A DNA stretch of 64,000 bases from Yamagishiella unicocca (taxonomy: Eukaryota; Chlorophyta; Chlorophyceae; Chlamydomonadales; Volvocaceae). Location of the stretch: assembly GCA_003116995.1 (NCBI GenBank), contig BDSL01000187.1, positions 25,572-89,571 of the forward strand, in the 5' to 3' direction. Under the pieces are notes generated by a model. It did not search any database. It had not been told where the DNA came from and saw only the letters and a list, made by a program, of their open reading frames with translations. Below, piece after piece: positions 4,010 through 52,200 of the stretch (its first letter is position 1; each line of letters begins with the position of its first letter). The position numbers were made by a program, and so were the translations under genes.

Positions 4010-4745
4010 CATCAAGCCGTTGCCACCTTTCCTCACATTGGTAACTTATTCAGTACACTCACCGTGTAAATGAGCGCCGCCACGCTTTCATAAGATGAAT
4101 GTTTCCTTGCTTCATACATCATCGCACTGAGCGCTGCCACTAATCGCCCCCGTGGGTCACTGGCGTAATAGGCAAGTATGAATAGCCTTTGTCCCTTTGC
4201 TGGGAAGCCCCGCTTATAACGCAAAAGTAAAGAGAGCTGGCGACAATACGCTCTTCGATTGTGTTCCCGTGGGTCGCTGTCGTTGGCATCAAGCCATGGC
4301 CTCCCTTCCTCCCATTGGTAGTTTGGATCGTAATAGAGCGCCGCCATTACGTACGCTCTTCGATTGTGCTCCCGTGGGTCGCTGTCGTTGGCATCAAGCT
4401 GCGAGCGATTTCCTTCCTCCCAGTGGTAACTTGGATCGTAATACAGCGACTCCCTTCCTCCCATTGGTAACTTGGATCGTAATATTAAAGAGACGCCGCC
4501 ATTACGTACGCTCTTCGATTGTGTTCCCGTCGTTGGCATCAAGCTGCGAGCGACTTCCGTGCTTCCTCCCATTGGTAATTTGGATCGTAATAATATCAAA
4601 GAGCTAGCTCTGCCATCACGTACGCTCTTCGATTTTGCTCCCGTGGGTCACTGTCGTTGGCATCAAGCCATGGCCTCCCATCCTCCCACTGGTAGTTTGG
4701 ATCGTAATATTAAAGAGCGCTGCCCAAACGCTCTTCAATTGCGTT
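4010..4745 (-). repeat. Tandem peptide-coding array, LDANDSDPREHNRRAY repeat
   Basis: Units of roughly 85-105 bp, diverged and of unequal length, run through this stretch. Read on the minus strand they encode repeats built of YYDP-x-Y-x-WEEG followed by LDANDSDPREHNRRAY and VMAAL. At least five clear units lie at 4235-4745, with more degraded ones toward 4010. The array directly follows, on the same strand, the cysteine-rich reading frame at 4710-5196. Several units have frame breaks, so whether the array is translated through is uncertain. The duplicate array is at 29215-29950. Confidence 0.6.
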
Positions 4746-29214: not shown

Positions 29215-29950
29215 GCCACCTTTCCTCACATTGGTAACTTATTCAGTACACTCACCGTGTAAATGAGCGCCGCCGCGCTTTCATAAGATGATTGTTTTAT
29301 ACATCATCGCACTGAGCGCTGCCACTAATCGCCCCCGTGGATCACTGGCGTAATAGGCAAAAACTATTAGCCTTTGTACCTTTGCTGGGAAGCCCCGCTT
29401 AGAACGCAGAAGTAAAGAGAGCTGCCGACAATACGCTCTTCGATTGTGTTCCCGTGGATCGCTGTCGTTGGCATCAAGCCATGGCCTCCCTTCCTCCCAT
29501 TGGTAGTTTGGATCGTAATAGAGCGCCGCCATTACGTACGCTCTTCGATTGTGCTCCCGTGGGTCGCTGTCGTTGGCATCAAGCTGCGAGCGACTTCCTT
29601 CCTCCCAGTGGTAACTTGGATCGTAATACAGCGACTCCCTTCCTCCCATTGGTAACTTGGATCGTAATATTAAAGAGACGCCGCCATTACGTACGCTCTT
29701 CGATTGTGTTCCCGTGGGTCGCTGTCGTTGGCATCAAGCTGCGAGCGACTTCCGTGCTTCCTCCCATTGGTAATTTGGATCGTAATAATATCAAAGAGCT
29801 AGATCTGCCATCACGTACGCTCTTCGCTTGTGCTCCCGTGGGTCACTGTCGTTGGCATCAAGCCATGGCCTCCCATCCTCCCATTGGTAGTTTGGATCGT
29901 AGTTTGGATCGTATTAGAGAGCGCTGCCAAAACGCTCTTCAATTGCGTTC
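29215..29950 (-). repeat. Tandem peptide-coding array (block C' copy)
   Basis: Partner of 4010-4745, with YYDP-x-Y-x-WEEG and LDANDSDPREHNRRAY units on the minus strand. Small unit differences include a restored 'gtgggtcgctgtcg' in the unit near 29715, where copy 1 has a 14-bp deletion. Confidence 0.6.
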
Positions 29951-41122: not shown

Positions 41123-42945
41123 CTGTATAAGCCACCTGTAGTATGATACGGCACGATACGGGGTCAAAATCATTGACGGAATGCGCTATGTCGTCCATGC
41201 CGTCCATGTCGTCCAATGATTAGGACTGGCTGGGGTACCCATTTGCATGCCGCCTTTCCGGTGGACATGTGCTGCACTGATGGAGCATATAACGCTGAAG
41301 TTCGCGTTTGAGAGCAAGCAGGTGATAAACCTCAATCGGTAACGGTTGCATCGCCAGTGGACAACAAAGCAAAACAGAACAGACATAATGATGAATCCAA
41401 GGGGGAGGGGAATATTTACGGGACGTTAAAGAGGCCACCAGGCCTTGCTACGTCCGTATGTATCCTGCTGGTCATCCACGTGCAAGGAAAAGCCAGGCGC
41501 TGTGAGACCACTGCACTTCCTACTGGCACAGCCATGGGAGGCTGCCTAAGATATTTCGCAATATGCGGCTTCACCCAAGTGGAAGGAAAGCCATTCAGCG
41601 AAACATATCATAGCACCCGCATTATAGGGATAACGCCCAGCTCAAATTCCGGAGTATTCAGGATAAAAGCGACAACAGAATGTTTGGGCAGCTTCATTTA
41701 CAGTTTGACAGTAGCAATTGCAGTCGTCGAGGACCTGAGACGAACAAGCCAACACGCAACTTGCTGGCCAGCGGTGGCATGCATTCATAGCGTGATCATA
41801 GTAAAATCATAACAACTGCGTTGCATGCGCACCGTCGGGAGCCCCGCATCCGTAGCACCTAAAAAGCTACCATACGGAAGTCCCCACAGCCCTCCTTACC
41901 GGTGGGGAAAAGGTCCGCAGCAAGAAAAAGTCGGAGCAACGATGCCGCTTCGATTGTCAAGTCGACACTTAGGGCTTCCTTCACACGCGTTGCCATGCTC
42001 GTGTCCGCACTCGACTTGGGGACATATGACACTGGTTCAGGAGTATCAAGCATTACGATTGATCTTTCATACATTCATATATATACTTCAGCACAGGAAG
42101 CGCTGCATATCGGGTGCCGGCGGACCGGGCGCCGTACGCGCTCGTCCAGCCGGCCGACCCAGGGCGGACGCTCCGGCGGACGCGCCCTGTTTCGACCTGG
42201 CAACTCGCAGCTTCGGGCCGGCTCGCGCGGCATTCCGGCAGGGAACAACCTTCCTACGGAACTTTTTCGGGTCGCTCGAGCGTCGCAGGAGCTGTGGCTT
42301 TGTGGAGCGATGCACGTCCCATGGAGGCCAGGGAGGCCAGCAAAGCACTTTGGGCGGGCCAGGAGGCGCGCGGACGGCCACTCTGCCACTACTGTATGGC
42401 AATGCACTCGCCATTCCTCGCGAAAGTAAAAGCCGCGGGAAAGTAACGCTACACGAGCGTCCGTACAGGGCTTCTTTGCCAAGTCCAATCAGTATAATAC
42501 GTAAAGGGGTGAGACCCCTTCAGAGTCCGATGTGTTGCGGTCTGCGGTCAACATGCACAAGAGGAACGACTGTCGCTATCTCGGTGGCGTTGACGACCGC
42601 GGTTCTTGTAACGGCTGTTCATTGCATAGCGTTACACCTCTTCAGAAGGTGTAAGCTTGCAGCTTACTTGAGCTAGATGATCGTCGTCGATCCTAAGCGC
42701 GCGCGCGCGAGCCCACCCTAAGCGCCAGGAAGGGCTCGGACTACACTCAGTTACACTCAGTGAATGCTGCAGCTCGGGCGTGCACCATGTTCTCGTGCGT
42801 GCACCATGTTCTCGTGCAAGGCGCGGTGCTCGCGCTTTCATTGGGGGTTTTGCCCGCCCCCACAATCACAGCCCTTGCCGGCAGTCGCCCCCTGCGCCCC
42901 AGAGAGAACTTCTGCGCCCCATACAGCGGGGGGGCCGGCTTAGTC
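41123..42945. other. No gene recognised
   Basis: The upstream exon of the GRDP-like gene should lie here but was not found. At 41.4-42.1 kb the sequence is AT-richer, with a plus-strand 151-residue open frame and a minus-strand one (PEPVSYVPKSSADTSMATRV). Neither has recognisable motifs or confirmed splice sites. A (gc)n run sits at 42698-42710. Confidence 0.35.
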
Positions 42946-45577
42946 CCGCTTTCGGCGGTCCAGGCGCTCCCTTGCTGCTGGAGGGGCTGGGAGAGGGAAA
43001 GTGGCCGATTGTTGCGGTACGCGACCCTAGGCCACCGCCGCCGCGCCCAACTAGTACCTAGTATGATATTTGAGAGCTGGTGGGGTGCGGGGGGCTGGTC
43101 TGGCTTTAACCAGGAGAGCAAACCCGCTTTCGGCGGTCCAGGCGCTCCCTTGCTGCTGGAGGGGCTGGGAGAGGGAAAGTGCCCGATTGTTGCCGTACGC
43201 GACCCTAAGCCACCGCCGCCGCTCCCAACTAGTGCCTCGTATGATATTTGAGAGCTGGTGGGGCGCGGGGGGCTGGCCTGGCTTTAACCAGGAGAGCAAA
43301 CCCGCTTTCGGCGGTCCAGGCGCTCCCTTGCTGCTGGAGGGGCTGGGAGAGGGAAAGTGCCCGATTGTTGCCGTACGCGACCCTAGGCCACCGCCGCCGC
43401 TCCCAGCTAGTGCCTAGTATGATATTTGAGAGTTGGTGGGGCGCGGAGGGCTGGCCTGGCTTTAACCAGGAGAGCAAACCCGCTTTCGGCGGTCCAGGCG
43501 CTCCCTTGCTGCTGGAGGGGCTGGGAGAGGGAAAGTGCCCGATTGTTGCCGTACGCGACCCTAGGCCACCGCCGCCGCTCCCAACTAGTGCCTAGTATGA
43601 TATTTGAGAGTTGGTGGGGCGCGGGGGGCTGGCCTGGCTTTAACCAGGAGAGCAAACCCGCTTTCGGCGGTCCAGGCGCTCCCTTGCTGCTGGAGGGGCT
43701 GGGAGAGGGAAAGTGCCCGATTGCTGCCGTACGCGACCCTACGCCACCGCCGCCGCGCCCAACTAGTGCCTCGTATGATATTTGAGAGCTGGTGGGACGC
43801 GGAGGGCTGGCCTGGCTTTAACCAGGAGAGCAAACCCGCTTTCGGCGGTCCAGGCGCTCCCTTGCTGCTGGAGGGGCTGGGAGAGGGAAAGTGCCCGATG
43901 GCTGCCGTACGCGACCCTAGGCCACCGCCGCCGCGCCCAGCTAGTGCCTAGTATGATATTTGAGAGTTGGTGGGGCGCGGAGGGCTGGCCTGGCTTTAAC
44001 CAGGAGAGCAAACCCGCTTTCGGCGGTCCAGGCGCTCCCTTGCTGCTGGAGGGGCTGGGAGAGGGAAAGTGCCCGATTGCTGCCGTACGCGACCCTACGC
44101 CACCGCCGCCGCGCCCAGCTAGTGCCTAGTATGATATTTGAGAGTTGGTGGGGCGCGGAGGGCTGGCCTGGCTTTAACCAGGAGAGCAAACCCGCTTTCG
44201 GCGGTCCAGGCGCTCCCTTGCTGCTGGAGGGGCTGGGAGAGGGAAAGTGCCCGATTGTTGCCGTACGCGACCCTAGGCCACCGCCGCCGCTCCCAGCTAG
44301 TGCCTAGTATGATATTTGAGAGTTGGTGGTACGCGGGGGGCTGGCCTGGCTTTAACCAGGAGAGCAAACCCGCTTTCGGCGGTCCAGGCGCTCCCTTGCT
44401 GCTGGAGGGGCTGGGAGAGGGAAAGTGCCCGATTGTTGCCGTACGCGACCCTAGGCCACCGCCGCCGCTCCCAGCTAGTGCCTAGTATGATATTTGAGAG
44501 TTGGTGGGGCGCGGAGGGCTGGCCTGGCTTTAACCAGGAGAGCAAACCCGCTTTCGGCGGTCCAGGCGCTCCCTTGCTGCTGGAGGGGCTGGGAGAGGGA
44601 AAGTGCCCGATTGTTGCCGTACGCGACCCTAAGCCACCGCCGCCGCTCCCAGCTAGTGCCTCGTATGATATTTGAGAGCTGGTGGGGCGCGGGGGGCTGG
44701 CCTGGCTTTAACCAGGAGAGCAAACCCGCTTTCGGCGGTCCAGGCGCTCCCTTGCTGCTGGAGGGGCTGGGAGAGGGAAAGTGCCCGATTGTTGCCGTAC
44801 GCGACCCTAGGCCACCGCCGCCGCTCCCAGCTAGTGCCTAGTATGATATTTGAGAGTTGGTGGGGCGCGGAGGGCTGGCCTGGCTTTAACCAGGAGAGCA
44901 AACCCGCTTTCGGCGGTCCAGGCGCTCCCTTGCTGCTGGAGGGGCTGGGAGAGGGAAAGTGCCCGATGGCTGCCGTACGCGACCCTAGGCCACCGCCGCC
45001 GCGCCCAGCTAGTGCCTAGTATGATATTTGAGAGTTGGTGGGGCGCGGAGGGCTGGCCTGGCTTTAACCAGGAGAGCAAACCCGCTTTCGGCGGTCCAGG
45101 CGCTCCCTTGCTGCTGGAGGGGCTGGGAGAGGGAAAGTGCCCGATGGCTGCCGTACGCGACCCTAGGCCACCGCCGCCGCGCCCAGCTAGTGCCTAGTAT
45201 GATATTTGAGAGTTGGTGGGGCGCGGAGGGCTGGCCTGGCTTTAACCAGGAGAGCAAACCCGCTTTCGGCGGTCCAGGCGCTCCCTTGCTGCTGGAGGGG
45301 CTGGGAGAGGGAAAGTGCCCGATTGCTGCCGTACGCGACCCTAGGCCACCGCCGCCGCTCCCAGCTAGTGCCTAGTATGATATTTGAGAGTTGGTGGGGC
45401 GCGGAGGGCTGGCCTGGCTTTAACCAGGAGAGCAAACCCGCTTTCGGCGGTCCAGGCGCTCCCTTGCTGCTGGAGGGGCTGGGAGAGGGAAAGTGCCCGA
45501 TTGCTGCCGTACGCGACCCTAGGCCACCGCCGCCGCGCCCAACTAGTGCCTAGTATGATATTTGAGAGCTGGTGGGG
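42946..45577. repeat. 178-bp satellite, about 14.8 copies
   Basis: The period is exactly 178 bp throughout, without indels. Each unit has 'ctttcggcggtccaggcgct', 'ggggctgggagagggaaagt', 'gccgtacgcgacccta' and an AT-rich 'tagtatgatatttgagag', then 'ggcctggctttaaccaggag'. Copies differ at a few linked sites. It begins within 'cttagtcccgctttcggcgg' and breaks off at 'ggtggggc' before the 64-bp array. Open frames of 82-119 residues on both strands are by-products of the repeat: 178 is not a multiple of 3. Confidence 0.97.
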
Positions 45578-45611
45578 CAGGATTTCATTCTGCGGAACCA
45601 GCCCTTCATCA

Positions 45612-46104
45612 GGTTACACGAAGTGCAAGTCGCGCGCCTGCCAGGGATCCACACAGCGGCCCCGGCCCTTCATTTGATCACACGCAGCGCAAGTCGCGCG
45701 CCTTCCAGGGATTCACACAGCGGCCCCGGTCCTTCATCAGATCACACGCAGCGCAAGTCGCGCGCCTTCCAGGGATTCACACAGCGGCCCCGGCCCTTCA
45801 TTTGATCACACGCAGCGCAAGTCGCGCGCCTTCCAGGGATTCACACAGCGGCCCCGGCCCTTCATTTGATCACACGCAGCGCAAGTCGCGCGCCTTCCAG
45901 GGATTCACACAGCGGCCCCGGTCCTTCATCAGATCACACGCAGCGCAAGTCGCGCGCCTTCCAGGGATTCACACAGCGGCCCCGGTCCTTCATCAGATCA
46001 CACGCAGCGCAAGTCGCGCGCCTTCCAGGGATTCACACAGCGGCCCCGGCCCTTCATCTGATCACACGCAGCATAAGTTGCGCGCCTTCCAGGGATTCAC
46101 ACAA
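45612..46104. repeat. 64-bp satellite, about 8 copies, next to the Crypton-like gene stop
   Basis: Units of 64 bp start at 45676, 45740, 45804, 45868, 45932, 45996 and 46060, with an imperfect first unit from 45612. The core is 'gatcacacgcagcgcaagtc' followed by 'gcgcgccttccagggattca'. Two alternating end forms, 'cttcatttgatc' and 'cttcatcagatc', occur. The last unit runs up to the stop codon (46105-46107) of the minus-strand recombinase gene, so the array forms its 3' flank. Confidence 0.95.
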
Positions 46105-49100
46105 TCAGTGGTCGGTTTGGTGCTCCCGGAGTTGCTTGCTCTGCGCATTCCAATAGTCCCTCTCAGCCTGTGACAGCTGCCGCCACTTCAAGGCAATTTG
46201 TTTGGTGTGCTCATGCGGCAGGGAGCTCTGTCCAGCTGCCGCTGCTTCTGCCTTCTGCGACTGCGTAAACAACATGTACCCGTTGGGTACCTGCTTTGGC
46301 TTCGCCGCTTGGCCATCCACGTTCTTCTTCCTTGCACCCGCTCCTCTCTCTTTTACCGCAATCGTGCCCGCCGCTGCCTCCAACGCGGTGTCGGAGCCTC
46401 CCGCCATGGCAGCTGTCTCCTCGCCGGTCCCCCTGCCCCCCGCTGCCTCCAACGCGGTGTCGGAGCCTCCCGCCATGGCAGCTGTCTCCTCGCCGGTCCC
46501 CCTGCCCCCCGCTGCCTCCAACGCGGTGTCGACGCCTCCCGCCATGGCAGCTGTCTCCACGCCGCGCCCCATGTCGCCAATCTTCCTCCGCTTTGCTTGC
46601 GGGCTTCCGCTATCTAAGGCAGCCTTCAAGCGGGCAGCCTTGGCCCCCACGAGGTCCGCCTTGGCAGGCGAGATGAACGACACTGGTCGACTTTTGGAGA
46701 CGTACACATCAAACTGGCCGCTGTCCCTTAAGTCCTTGACGTGTTTCAGCAAGGCTTTCAGGCTGTTCAGGCCGTGTAGGTGCTGCTGCTGCTGCCTGCT
46801 GCTGCTGCCTGCCGCCAGCTGCCTGCTGCTGCTGCCTGCCGCCAGCTGCTGCTGCCTGCCGGGCGTGAGGCCTGGCGCGCCGGCAAACGCCAAGCCGCCC
46901 ACGCCGCTGCCGCCAGCTGCCCCCGTGAGGCCGCGCAAGTCCATGAGCGGCGAGGCTTGCGCCAGCTGCTGCTGCCTGCCGGGCGTGAGGCCTGGCGCGC
47001 CGGCAAACGCCAAGCCGCCCACGCCGCTGCCGCCAGCTGCCCCCGTGAGGCCGCGCAAGTCCATGAGCGGCGAGGCTTGCGCCAGCTGCGGCCCCCCTCG
47101 TTGCTGAACCAAGAATTGCTGAAGCATCACGGATTGCTGTAGTGGTAGAATGGCCATCTGCCGCTGCAGGCCGATGAGGCAGTCCAAGGCAACTGGCGGT
47201 TGCGTTCGTGCGATCGCCTGCATGACGGTGGCCGGTGGGATGTGACCGTTAATCCTTACCCTGCCGTTGCATAACCGACCTAGGGTGTTTCCGACCTGAA
47301 CATTATCTTTCCTCTGAAGTAAAGCGGTATTGCAGCGACCAGAAAACGAGTGAACACCTAACGAGATCTTACCCCCGTAGTCATGGCCTTTTCATAGGCT
47401 GCACGTAGAAGCTGCCACTGCGGCAGATTCCGCAATCTGTGGACCAAGGGGTTCTCCGCGGCGGTGTCCGCCAGTTCGAGAGAATCTTGCACAGCGCAGC
47501 CGCTTATGAACTCCATGGCCTCCAGGTTGAACGACGCAGACGGCAGCTTCTCCTTGGCACCTGCGGACATGCTGCCCACGCGCTCACGTAGCTGGGGTAG
47601 GAAAGAAAAAATGGCTACCTTCAGCGGCTCCAGCAAGGCAGGCGATATCTGCAGCATGAAGCGCGGTGCCCAGTAGGCCGTCTTCAGCTTGTCCGGCGTG
47701 CAGCAGTCGAAACCCGCGAGCATCAGTAGACCATCGTACGGGACAGGCATGAGGTACGACTCCACGAGCGCACTGCCCTCTTGCCAGTGGCCCATGCGCT
47801 TGATTGTCTCTCGAGAAGCCCTGCATGCAAAAAGGAAGCTCAGGGATCAACGGGTGTTTGTTTTACAACTGCCTCGAATGCCTCAAATGCCTACCCTGCT
47901 GCATCCAGAGCTTGTGTTCCTCCCACACGAAACACATGCGTCCTCTTCCGCGTGATGATGTCCAGGCACCGCAGGATGTCCTTCACCATATCAAGCTGCT
48001 GCGTATAGTTAATGGCCTGGTTGGTCGTCATGGCGCGCAGCAGCACGCACGTCAGCCTGCACGCATGGAATAATCCTGTTGAAGGGTACCTCAAACTGAG
48101 AAGTGCAAAGTCACTCGTAATCTTACCACTCCTCCTCGTCCAATGGGTTCGGATAGCTCTCGCCCTCCAACGTGAAGCGGACGTACAGGTACTCCGCCAG
48201 CGCCCTGATTGGACACTTAATGGCCGTCACGCCCCTCAGGAACGCGATCACTGTCTTCCGCCCACGCGCAAGTCCATGCGCTTGATTGTCTCTCGAGAAG
48301 CCCTGCATGCAAAAAGGAAGCTCAGGGATCAACGGGTGTTTGTTTTACAACTGCCTCGAATGCCTCAAATGCCTACCCTGCTGCATCCAGAGCTTGTGTT
48401 CCTCCCACACGAAACACATGCGTCCTCTTCCGCGTGATGATGTCCAGGCACCGCAGGATGTCCTTCACCATATCAAGCTGCTGCGTATAGTTAATGGCCT
48501 GGTTGGTCGTCATGGCGCGCAGCAGCACGCACGTCAGCCTGCACGCATGGAATAATCCTGTTGAAGGGTACCTCAAACTGAGAAGTGCAAAGTCACTCGT
48601 AATCTTACCACTCCTCCTCGTCCAATGGGTTCGGATAGCTCTCGCCCTCCAACGTGAAGCGGACGTACAGGTACTCCGCCAGCGCCCTGATTGGACACTT
48701 AATGGCCGTCACGCCCCTCAGGAACGCGATCACTGTCTTCCGCCCACTCTACACACAACGGCAACAACATGTTCATGTAATGTGGCAGTAAAGTATTCTT
48801 AGACCTGGCCAGATCCCAACAGCATTTCGCACCCGCTGAGCCTTGCCGCCCTCCAGCACGATGTTGATGTACTTCGCCTCACAGGGCCCAACAGTCTGCG
48901 CAACTTTGGGCTTCCCGATGCAGCAGACCAACAGCAAGCGGCTGTCATCCCCACGGGTGACCGTGTGGTGAAGCAGCTGCACGGTACACTGCCCAAGCGA
49001 CACCCGGTAGAGCGACTTCCATCCGAGTCTCTGCATCGCAGCGGTGCCAGACGCCATCAGCGAGAACACCCTGCCAATCTGGTCCTCGTCGTAAGCGTCA

Positions 49101-50047
49101 TTCACCGTCTGGGCGTGTGGGTCACGCGTGCGCCTGGAAAAAGACAGGAACTTAGTAAGGCCTCCCCCCCCACGAGAACAACTCTGGGGGTCTATCTTAC
49201 TTTGAGCCCTTCTTGCCAAGACATATTTCCTTGGCCAGTTCGTACTCATGCATAAACTCCTCCACAGCTGAGACAGCGGGCTCGTCCGAGGCGGTCGGCA
49301 GTGTCAGGCGGTTGGTTTTGTCCAATTTCACGATAGCGCTGCGCACTCCCTCAAGCGTTTTGAAGCCAACCTGTGCAAGTACAACATCCTTGTTATATGC
49401 ATTCCATGGGGAAGATAATGTTCATTGTAATTATGGACCCTGCTTGTACCTTCTCCTCTGCGAGCTGCTTGAACAGGACTCCTGCGAGGGCACCAAGCTC
49501 CCTGCCAAAGGTCTTCCCCATGTCGACGTCCTTTTTCTGGCATAGAGCCTGCAACGCACGGACATGTAACAGGCTGTCAATAACCGTTTGATTCGTTGCC
49601 AAACACACTCGTGCCGTCCAAAACCCTGGCCCTCCTTCCCCCCACACTCCAGACCGCAAAACATGTTCCCTCACGCTCCCCCTCGCTCCCCCAAACACAT
49701 TTCATTCCATATTTCATTTGTGCCCTGTGCAGTACCAACCAAGAGCTTGTTGAGCTGTGAGTCGTAGGTCCTCTTTGTGTTCGGCTTCCCGGACACCTTC
49801 GTGCGTTCCGCGAGATCCGCTCGCGCGTCGGAGTCATAGGCAAACCTGCATACACAGGATGACTTTTTATTACCATTGTTAATTGGGCGGGGCTTCTGGG
49901 TTGAGTGCGCGCGCCATGGTTGAACGGCTACATCCATCTTTCTTACCGCTTTTTCTGTTCACCATTAGCATCCTCCAACACAACTTCTTCTCCATTATCC
50001 AATGCGTTATCCCACTCGCGTTCCAAGGCGCGAGCCGCTCCCGCCAT
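46105..50047 (-). CDS. Crypton-type tyrosine recombinase fused to an HMG box (nine exons)
   Basis: The ATG is at 50047. Exons are 50047-49947, 49845-49740, 49548-49450, 49370-49201, 49133-48821, 48748-48609, 48577-48377, 47820-47373 and 47217-46105, with GT-AG borders and matching phase at all eight joins, giving about 896 residues. Residues ~50-100 (KVSGKPNTKRTYDSQLNKLL) are the N-terminal helical domain. The catalytic domain shows TRGDDSR (Arg219), CPIRALAEYLYVRF, THVFR (His363/Arg366), IKRMGHW (Trp389) and VESYLM (Tyr399), as in Crypton recombinases: R, HxxR, H/W, Y all present. Residues 527-830 form a Gln/Ala/Gly linker with in-frame repeats. Residues 832-896 (KPKQVPNGYMLFTQSQK, then ALKWRQLSQAERDYWNAQSK) form an HMG box. 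It could be a mobile Crypton or a host-domesticated copy. Element ends were not identified. Confidence 0.8.
46372..46578 (-). repeat. 69-bp in-frame tandem repeat (3 copies) in the linker
   Basis: 'caacgcggtgtcggagcctc' recurs at 46381, 46450 and 46519, a period of 69 bp. It encodes 23-residue units reading about GEETAAMAGGSDTALEAAGG. The third copy has drifted slightly. Confidence 0.9.
46841..47089 (-). repeat. 120-bp in-frame tandem duplication in the linker
   Basis: 46841-46960 and 46961-47080 are identical, followed by a 9-bp partial copy. It encodes two 40-residue units with LAQASPLMDLRGLTGAAGG and AGAPGLTPGRQQQ. Exact identity implies very recent origin, or possibly an assembly artefact. 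Confidence 0.95.
47792..48265 (-). repeat. 474-bp tandem duplication, decoy copy in intron 7
   Basis: It is identical to 48274-48747 by eye at an offset of 482 bp, with 8 bases (gcgcaagt) between. This copy contains duplicates of exon 6 (lacking its acceptor), exon 7 and intron 7, and ends inside the true exon 8. Reading straight through the fused exon-8/exon-6 piece gives a stop. Splicing exon 7 or its duplicate directly to exon 8 preserves the protein. Confidence 0.9.
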
Positions 50048-52200
50048 CGGAGCGTTTACCTTGCGCGAGTCCCCTTACTTTGCGTGAGATACTTTTATGT
50101 TAACCGAGTATACTACAATGTCTTGACAAAGTGTCCTGCTGTCAGTCAAAGTCAGACCTATGCCTAAACGCGAACCTAAAAGGCGCAATTCTTTGTCCAT
50201 AGGTTCGTCGTGAAAAGTCTTACTTATAACACTTGTAGACCATGCGAATACTTCAGTTTTTGGGTGTTTATGACAGCTCAGATGGCCGGCGGACCTGAAG
50301 GCACATAAATCAGGTCCGCCTTCGGTCCGCCGGTCGTACAATCCGGGTCCGCCGGACCCTGTTTATGGCCCACATAGATTACGCAATGCATTGCTCGTCA
50401 TTTACGGCACGGAAATGGCCGTGTCACCAACGCCGATTACGCATTGGCATTTTTGCCAAGGTATGTAAACAAAGCCACGCATATACGCTTTTCAGAGCAA
50501 ATGAATGCAGAAAATGTGCGCCATTCCGATTTTCCGAGCGTGTGTCCATTGTCGTCCAGACGGAAGCTAAATCCAAAAACGGGCGGATTGTTCGGCTAAT
50601 TGGTCACATTTTTAAAGCAAAAAACTTGTAAAACAATGCGCCCATCCAGTAATTGGGCCTGTAGATTCTTGCCTTCGGACAAACTGGTCTCAGGATATGA
50701 CGTTGCCGATTCCCATAATTGCAGTCGTTCTTTAGCATAGGAAGCTTAGGCTTAAGCTTAGCCAGGTTTACACCTTACACCATCGTCAGCACTTTTGGAG
50801 GCACCAACAACCTGGGAAGCTTCGCACTTGTCGTGACCCGTCCTGCATGGTCCTGCAATGATGGGGCCCCGACGATTGAAAACTCAAAATACTGCGCCAA
50901 ACTGGGGTGCCAATGGCCAGGTGCCTGATGATTTGTGTATCGGGCCAAGGGCCTCCAGCGAGCGCATGCATAAAGGTCCAGTGTCGCATCGTACCTTAAT
51001 GTACCTTTTTTGTGTTTACTCCATAGCAGCACAATCCTCTTTGTACCAGGAACGGTACAGCAGTGTCATAATTGATTTCTTTTCTGATAAGGTGGGCTGT
51101 GCATACTCCCTTCTTCCCGTTACAACGTTAGCTTCCAGGACTTGCAGATGCATGGAAAGCCTTTACGTGCACGGTGGTGCATTATTTCAGTATGTCAGGG
51201 GTTATGACATCGTGCCACTGCCCCCACTGGCCAGTGGCATTGTTGAAGAGATGACGCATGTTGAAGACGGTTGGGGCGAGAACGCGAACACGCAACATGT
51301 AGCGCCTCTGTGGCGCCTCTACCCTTGACTTTAATGTTTCATTATGTTTCCGACCGGAGGTAGGCAAGCCAGGCGTGCACAGCAACTTGCAAAGTTTGCA
51401 ATTCCTGGAACCAGGCAACGCGACACAACATACGTACATATCTGCGGACATTTGAGATCGCGAGTATTCAGCGGTGTATCCCCCATTGTATACCTAAAAC
51501 TTAAACCTTCGACCGCTTGAAAGTGTTGTAGCACTTGAGGAGCGCGTCGCAGCAACTCTAGTGCGACCTGGTGCGATCTTGCCCCAAAGCTTGGCGATGC
51601 AGAATGAGACCCTTAGTCTCCCCGGTTTTCTTACCCAATAGCTCCTCAACACCGGCTCCACTTGATTAGGTGGCGTGGATGGTGGCTCCTCCTGTGGCGT
51701 GGATCAGTGCCGATCAGTGGTTACGAAAGGGCGGGAGCGGAAAGGCAACGGGAGGTGACGGGAGACGCCATGAAGACGCCGATAGACGGTGCAGACTGCG
51801 ATTCAAACAGCGGGGGGTTGGACGGCCCGCAACAGATCGAGGACTGGAAGACAAGCGCATTAGTACTCGGTTAACCGGAGGTGAAAGACGCAGCTGCTGT
51901 TTCAATTCTTTCGCGCCTCCCATCACCATTTTCTGCGGCAAAAATGGCACTAATGAAACGCAAACAGGCTATCCTCCCAATGACGTCTTAAAAAGTTTTT
52001 GTGATGGGTGCGTCACTGGCCCGTCGCAACCAGTGCAGCTTTCCTTGGCTTTGTTTCTTTGTTTCACCTCATGCGCGTGTGGCGCGGTATAAGGCATGCT
52101 CTCCTCCGGATGCTGTACACCGGTTGAGTCGTGTTGAGTGTATACGTTGCTAGGATGGCAGGCAACTCCGGCCAGCATTAATGACCTCGAAACGCCCTGA
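50048..52200. other. No gene recognised; upstream region of the recombinase gene
   Basis: Lower in GC than the window average. It holds a cluster of GGTCCGCC palindromes (listed separately). Short frames on both strands lack motifs or consistent splice sites. The promoter of the recombinase gene should lie at its left end, but no clear TATA box is seen. Confidence 0.35.
50284..50362. repeat. Cluster of GGTCCGCC/GGCGGACC palindromic motifs
   Basis: Four or five occurrences of the octamer in both orientations lie within 80 bp, including the perfect foldback 'gggtccgccggaccc' and 'ggcggacc' paired with 'ggtccgcc'. It sits about 240-315 bp upstream of the recombinase ATG. Confidence 0.7.

Follow-up and report, generated by a model that had tools for sequence, protein, structure and literature searches.

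A probable Crypton-type transposon family of the green alga Yamagishiella unicocca whose spliced tyrosine recombinase ends in an HMG box

We analysed a 64,000-nucleotide stretch of contig BDSL01000187.1 of Yamagishiella unicocca (hereafter, the window), the minus strand of which carries a spliced gene of nine exons. The exons are joined at GT..AG junctions with matching phases and run from an ATG at 50047 to a stop codon at 46105, giving a translation of 911 amino acids and bearing out the phase-matched chain that an initial annotation had proposed. The gene makes up only a portion of a mobile element about twice as long as the stretch first noted (46105..50047). An element no larger than the nine-exon gene was ruled out, as both ends lie outside the gene. 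Positions are reported in Table 1.

Table 1. Features of the element copy in the window, and location of the full-length copy C245.
Feature	Position	Strand	Basis
Complete mobile element (8,271 bp), each end with TATG	42106..50376	-	shared edges of copies
Left core TATG	50373..50376	-	left junctions of copies
Subterminal motif, 1 of 4 (GGTCCGCCGG, reverse complement)	50346..50355	-	element index 21
Exon 1	49947..50047	-	spliced chain
Exon 2	49740..49845	-	spliced chain
Exon 3	49450..49548	-	spliced chain
Exon 4	49201..49370	-	spliced chain
Exon 5, recombinase with RGDDxR	48833..49133	-	spliced chain, C10 comparison
Exon 6, first copy	48609..48748	-	spliced chain
Exon 7, first copy, HxxR	48377..48538	-	spliced chain, C10 comparison
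Tandem duplication, 482 bp, of exons 6 and 7 with the beginning of exon 8	47792..48747	-	single unit elsewhere
Exon 8, GxW and Y	47373..47820	-	spliced chain, C10 comparison
Exon 9, coding repeats and C-terminal HMG box	46105..47313	-	profile match, spliced chain
Two 120-bp coding repeats (ten in C245)	46840..47089	-	
HMG box in exon 9	about 46120-46310	-	
64-bp tandem array, 7.9 units, in element	45601..46103	.	common to other copies
178-bp tandem array, 14.8 units, in element	42945..45578	.	common to other copies
Subterminal motif GGTCCGCCGG, right end	42117..42126	-	element index 8250
Right core TATG	42106..42109	-	right junctions of copies
C245 element, 8,444 bp	C245:4393-12836		

A Pfam profile search with exons 1–8 of the window copy returned NDC10_II (PF16787) at 1.9e-12, in agreement with the tyrosine recombinase claimed from the bare sequence. 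Yeast Ndc10, to which Pfam relates the recombinase part most closely, acts at the centromere and is not mobile, unlike a transposon recombinase; we take PF16787 to be the Pfam home of this protein and to be linked to Crypton recombinases. Over the whole genome, none of the five single-exon matches to PF16787 passed the cut-off, because the domain is split over exons. The catalytic residues of Crypton tyrosine recombinases are R, HxxR, H/W and Y, and the order R, HxxR, W, Y read earlier was recovered as RGDDxR, HxxR, GxW and Y, all of them invariant between the HMG-box family and a paralogue (C10) in the same genome. No homologue of the recombinase or of the last-exon end was found in 5.8 billion proteins, and none was found in viral contigs (214 pattern stretches), though spliced algal sequence may be sparsely represented in these collections. 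Among solved structures there was no relative of the recombinase (best E 0.83).

The paralogue, at C10:330.5-332 kb, has a recombinase 35% identical to that of the HMG-box family. All four comparable introns (E5/6 to E8/9) fall within about one to two residues of each other, with identical phases (0, 2, 2, 0), and because the two genes share introns in place and phase, the nine-exon chain is more than chance. C10 likewise has coding repeats and a homologous C-terminal part resembling GCR1_C. No HMG box was found in C10, either by Pfam or in the genome-wide lists of HMG matches. A match of its last exon to PF00725 (1.3e-4) was set aside as a repeat artefact, with no stretch passing. Elsewhere in the genome, a 395-residue ORF at C31:278500-284000 matches PF16787 weakly and includes an HxxR..Y stretch like that of recombinases; judged by eye only, it is perhaps a DIRS-type element.

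The C-terminal HMG box was likewise checked with profiles. The last-exon frame matched HMG_box_2 (PF09011) at 9.4e-7, over the cut-off, and HMG_box (PF00505) at 7.9e-5, which at 23.5 bits is under the cut-off of 25.4; a 92-residue piece with the HMG box gave 4.2e-8 and 4.3e-6, respectively. The nearest PDB chains are those of TFAM, with weak matches (E about 0.001). Compared with host HMG boxes, the domain is only about 22–31% identical, and therefore was not recently captured from those compared.

In copy C245, the corresponding nine exons, taken from its own sequence, give an uninterrupted frame of 1,363 residues. Its protein comprises, in order, an N-terminal part, the recombinase, ten 40-residue repeats, a GCR1_C-like part and the HMG box, of which the last three elements form one open last-exon frame of 880 residues. 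With both parts matched by profiles and the HMG box of C245 lying in an open last exon, the fusion of recombinase and HMG box claimed for the window gene is supported. The number of bases before the HMG part keeps the frame in six of the seven copies that hold this spot; in the other, C1028, a one-base deletion before the HMG box would end the protein at 1,142 residues.

The window copy differs from C245 in two respects. Its exon 9 is 452 residues shorter, with two repeats left and the GCR1_C-like part gone, and it has a tandem duplication of 474 identical bases (48747-48274 and 48265-47792, with 8 bases between them) where C245, C1028, C1243 and C462 have one unit only. One set of exons 6 and 7 must be skipped in the nine-exon chain, and the unskipped translation meets a stop after residue 377, upstream of the tyrosine. 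Since the duplication brings this stop and the GCR1_C-like part is absent, the window copy looks defective, and on its sequence is probably a defective member of the transposon family. Thirteen bases at the joint of the duplication recur in the coding repeats of the element, so template switching is possible; the duplication may also be an assembly error.

The assignment of the GCR1_C-like part follows from homology more than from its own profile score. A 92-residue piece of C245 matched GCR1_C (PF12550) at 0.0063 and 17.2 bits, under the cut-off of 23, and the HMG-box family was not among the matches listed in a genome search with PF12550. The stretch is homologous to an ORF on C149 (29.6% identity, E 9e-12) that does pass the GCR1_C cut-off (1e-6), and to the C-terminal end of C10 (35.6% over the aligned stretch, E 8e-6), which itself has no Pfam GCR1_C match. 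The C149 ORF, to which one database protein is 75% identical, has an OTU protease and a D5-like primase (DUF5906; weak match to Pox_D5) as neighbours, and we therefore read C149:70500-76000 as a giant-virus-like block.

C10, with its related recombinase and matching introns, has no HMG box by Pfam, so the box has the appearance of a gain in a single lineage, on a protein whose family would otherwise close with the GCR1_C-like part. From the two families compared, loss of the HMG box in C10 is equally possible.

Constraint on the protein was assessed by comparison with C141, a single copy that has diverged and been rearranged. In the HMG codons there are 8 synonymous changes on 36 sites and 0 replacement changes on 129 (Fisher test, p = 2.6e-6), indicating, from the one diverged copy compared, that the HMG frame is under purifying selection. 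The recombinase exons have 10.7 synonymous changes on 232.8 sites and 22.3 replacement changes on 718.2 (dN/dS 0.67), a weak constraint, and the start of exon 9 has 1 synonymous and 5 replacement changes (dN/dS 1.65). In C43, the GCR1_C-like part has 0 synonymous and 3 replacement changes.

With the gene as query, the 1,415 contigs of the genome (133.4 Mb) yielded at least 20 loci of the family among the best 40 of 92 candidates. Seventeen of the 19 loci other than the window are 99–100% identical (rounded) in their best stretch, the remaining two being C43 (98%) and C141 (95%). The left ends of 18 copies start at one point, with TATG in 17 and CATG in one, and fall in 12 different left contexts; one left flank is common to five loci and another to two. 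At C825:9898-13005, two short copies meet at their left ends in a head-to-head arrangement. Given this pair and the shared flanks, the loci are not all independent insertions. At the right junctions, 14 of 15 rows read GATATG and then diverge, and the right end of C17, which is 87% identical, reads GATAT-C. The transposon family is recently mobile.

Inside these ends, GGTCCGCCGG occurs four times per element, always within 100 bases of an end, where 0.04 occurrences are expected for this motif, which was picked after looking; the motifs at the element ends are inverted. Short derivatives (C9, C138, C14, C15, C47 and others) have lost most recombinase exons and have the same ends at other sites, which suggests that the recombinase would be supplied to them in trans. 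The 178-bp array is also present at C229, C142, C25 and other places with a different right continuation. Elsewhere in the window, a 41-bp unit is tandemly repeated at two places (4404-4484 and 29589-29669).

To find empty sites, we placed a single core between the left and right flanks of each of eight insertions and searched the genome with the resulting sequences. Unbroken matches were obtained for the C138 pair (19 of 41 listed) and the C245 pair (21 of 41 listed), in each case among the best 40 of 261 candidates, and represent two repeat families. For the six other flank pairs there was no single match across the junction among the best 40 of 170 candidates, and no empty site of the window copy, C14, C15 or C47 was seen among the matches listed. 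Empty copies were read at four insertion sites, with 17 of 18 fetched stretches readable. A single TATG is present in all four C138-type sites, in all five readable C245-type sites and in both sites that join the C9b left flank to the C9a right flank; the six sites that join the C9a left flank to the C9b right flank all have a single CATG, with a one-base difference beside the core. Empty sites thus carry one TATG or CATG core and filled sites one core per end, the filled C245 site having one extra G after its right TATG. The termini are short direct repeats of 4 bp, with no copied target beyond them.

The CATG target is the informative one. After insertion its left junction reads CATG and its right junction TATG, and because these junctions differ, the core was exchanged with the TATG of the element rather than duplicated. 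As read from the junctions, this core exchange is insertion of the Crypton-like tyrosine-recombinase kind. The two C9 copies concerned (C9:392852-395107 and C9:1258270-1260525) are inverted relative to each other and separated by about 0.86 Mb of the same contig. Their flanks are joined crosswise at the empty sites, so the two copies have exchanged flanks, by recombination between copies (an inversion) or through misassembly.

The family combines features of described Cryptons. In the account of Kojima and Jurka (2011, PMC3212892), CryptonF elements of fungi and oomycetes encode a recombinase followed by GCR1_C and have mostly 6-bp repeats. The algal family resembles them in its tyrosine recombinase followed by a GCR1_C-like domain and in its short terminal direct repeats; it differs in its TATG core and its green algal host, and in its HMG box and long arrays, neither of which we found in CryptonF as described there. 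CryptonS elements of oomycetes and a diatom are given mostly TATGG termini, close to the TATG of the algal family, and no GCR1_C, unlike the algal family with its GCR1_C-like part (PMC3212892). The hosts in Table 1 of that paper are animals, fungi and stramenopiles, with no green alga among them, and a survey that included Volvox carteri gives, in its Crypton results, one Crypton, in Nematostella (PMC4157794). In the host genome, a RuBisCO small-subunit exon agrees with PDB chain 9hvm_B, a Chlamydomonas chain, at 57 of 59 positions, which fits a relative of Chlamydomonas or Volvox. In the literature searched (mostly open-access, excluding Repbase), we found no report of an HMG box on a Crypton or any tyrosine recombinase.

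We consider it highly probable that the locus is a Crypton-type DNA transposon encoding a spliced tyrosine recombinase with a C-terminal HMG box, of which the window copy is a defective member. The recombinase and the HMG box could also be two genes of one element, with the junction between them not translated as one protein. The C1028 frameshift falls between the two parts, and the short derivatives keep the HMG end with the recombinase gone, as might be seen in such a case. Against it, the open last-exon frame of C245 spans the repeats, the GCR1_C-like part and the HMG box, the base count before the HMG part is kept in frame in six of the seven copies with that spot, and the splice from exon 8 to exon 9 has the same place and phase in C10, which makes two separate genes unlikely. 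It is very unlikely that another enzyme, such as a DDE transposase with a fixed 4-bp target, moves the element with the recombinase as a passenger. Fixed-target transposases likewise leave a seemingly constant 4-bp repeat, and the inverted GGTCCGCCGG motifs would suit this reading too; however, the CATG and TATG junctions differ at the CATG target, where duplication would need a later mutation, and a Pfam scan of 11 ORFs located in the remainder of the element and at its right edge gave no other domain.

The initial annotation had left the choice between a live transposon and a domesticated gene. A host gene built from a Crypton recombinase and an HMG box would fit the constrained HMG frame, and domesticated Crypton genes are known in number, according to the account in PMC3212892. 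The many loci with the same ends and different flanks, together with the empty sites, contradict such a gene and effectively rule it out; the catalytic residues are intact, and the window copy is defective. The transposon half of that proposal therefore holds for the family, on its at least 20 loci and empty sites, and the window copy itself is probably no longer functional.

For the Crypton-type transposon, we infer a cycle that would begin with excision of a circular form of the element by the spliced tyrosine recombinase; the TATG core of the circle would then recombine with a genomic TATG or CATG core, giving insertion at ATG-containing cores. Synapsis of the sites by the recombinase would most likely be aided by the HMG box, which would bend or hold the DNA of the element ends or of the target. 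In the putative circle, copies of GGTCCGCCGG flank the core on either side and point towards it, at distances of 7 and 17 bases, a spacing of ten bases or one helical turn. We tentatively propose, as a possibility short of an even chance, that the HMG box is a built-in architectural factor, bending the stretch that separates the core from the subterminal GGTCCGCCGG sites; additional binding sites could lie in the 178-bp and 64-bp arrays. If true, one polypeptide would do what separate bending proteins do for other integrases.

Of the DNA transposons of eukaryotes, Cryptons are to our knowledge those least well understood. The present family offers near-identical copies, readable empty sites and one fully open copy, as well as a natural comparison, within one genome, of recombinases with and without an HMG box. 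The CATG target shows which core base comes from the target and which from the element, and with such a Crypton family the assembly of sites by eukaryotic tyrosine recombinases would become testable.
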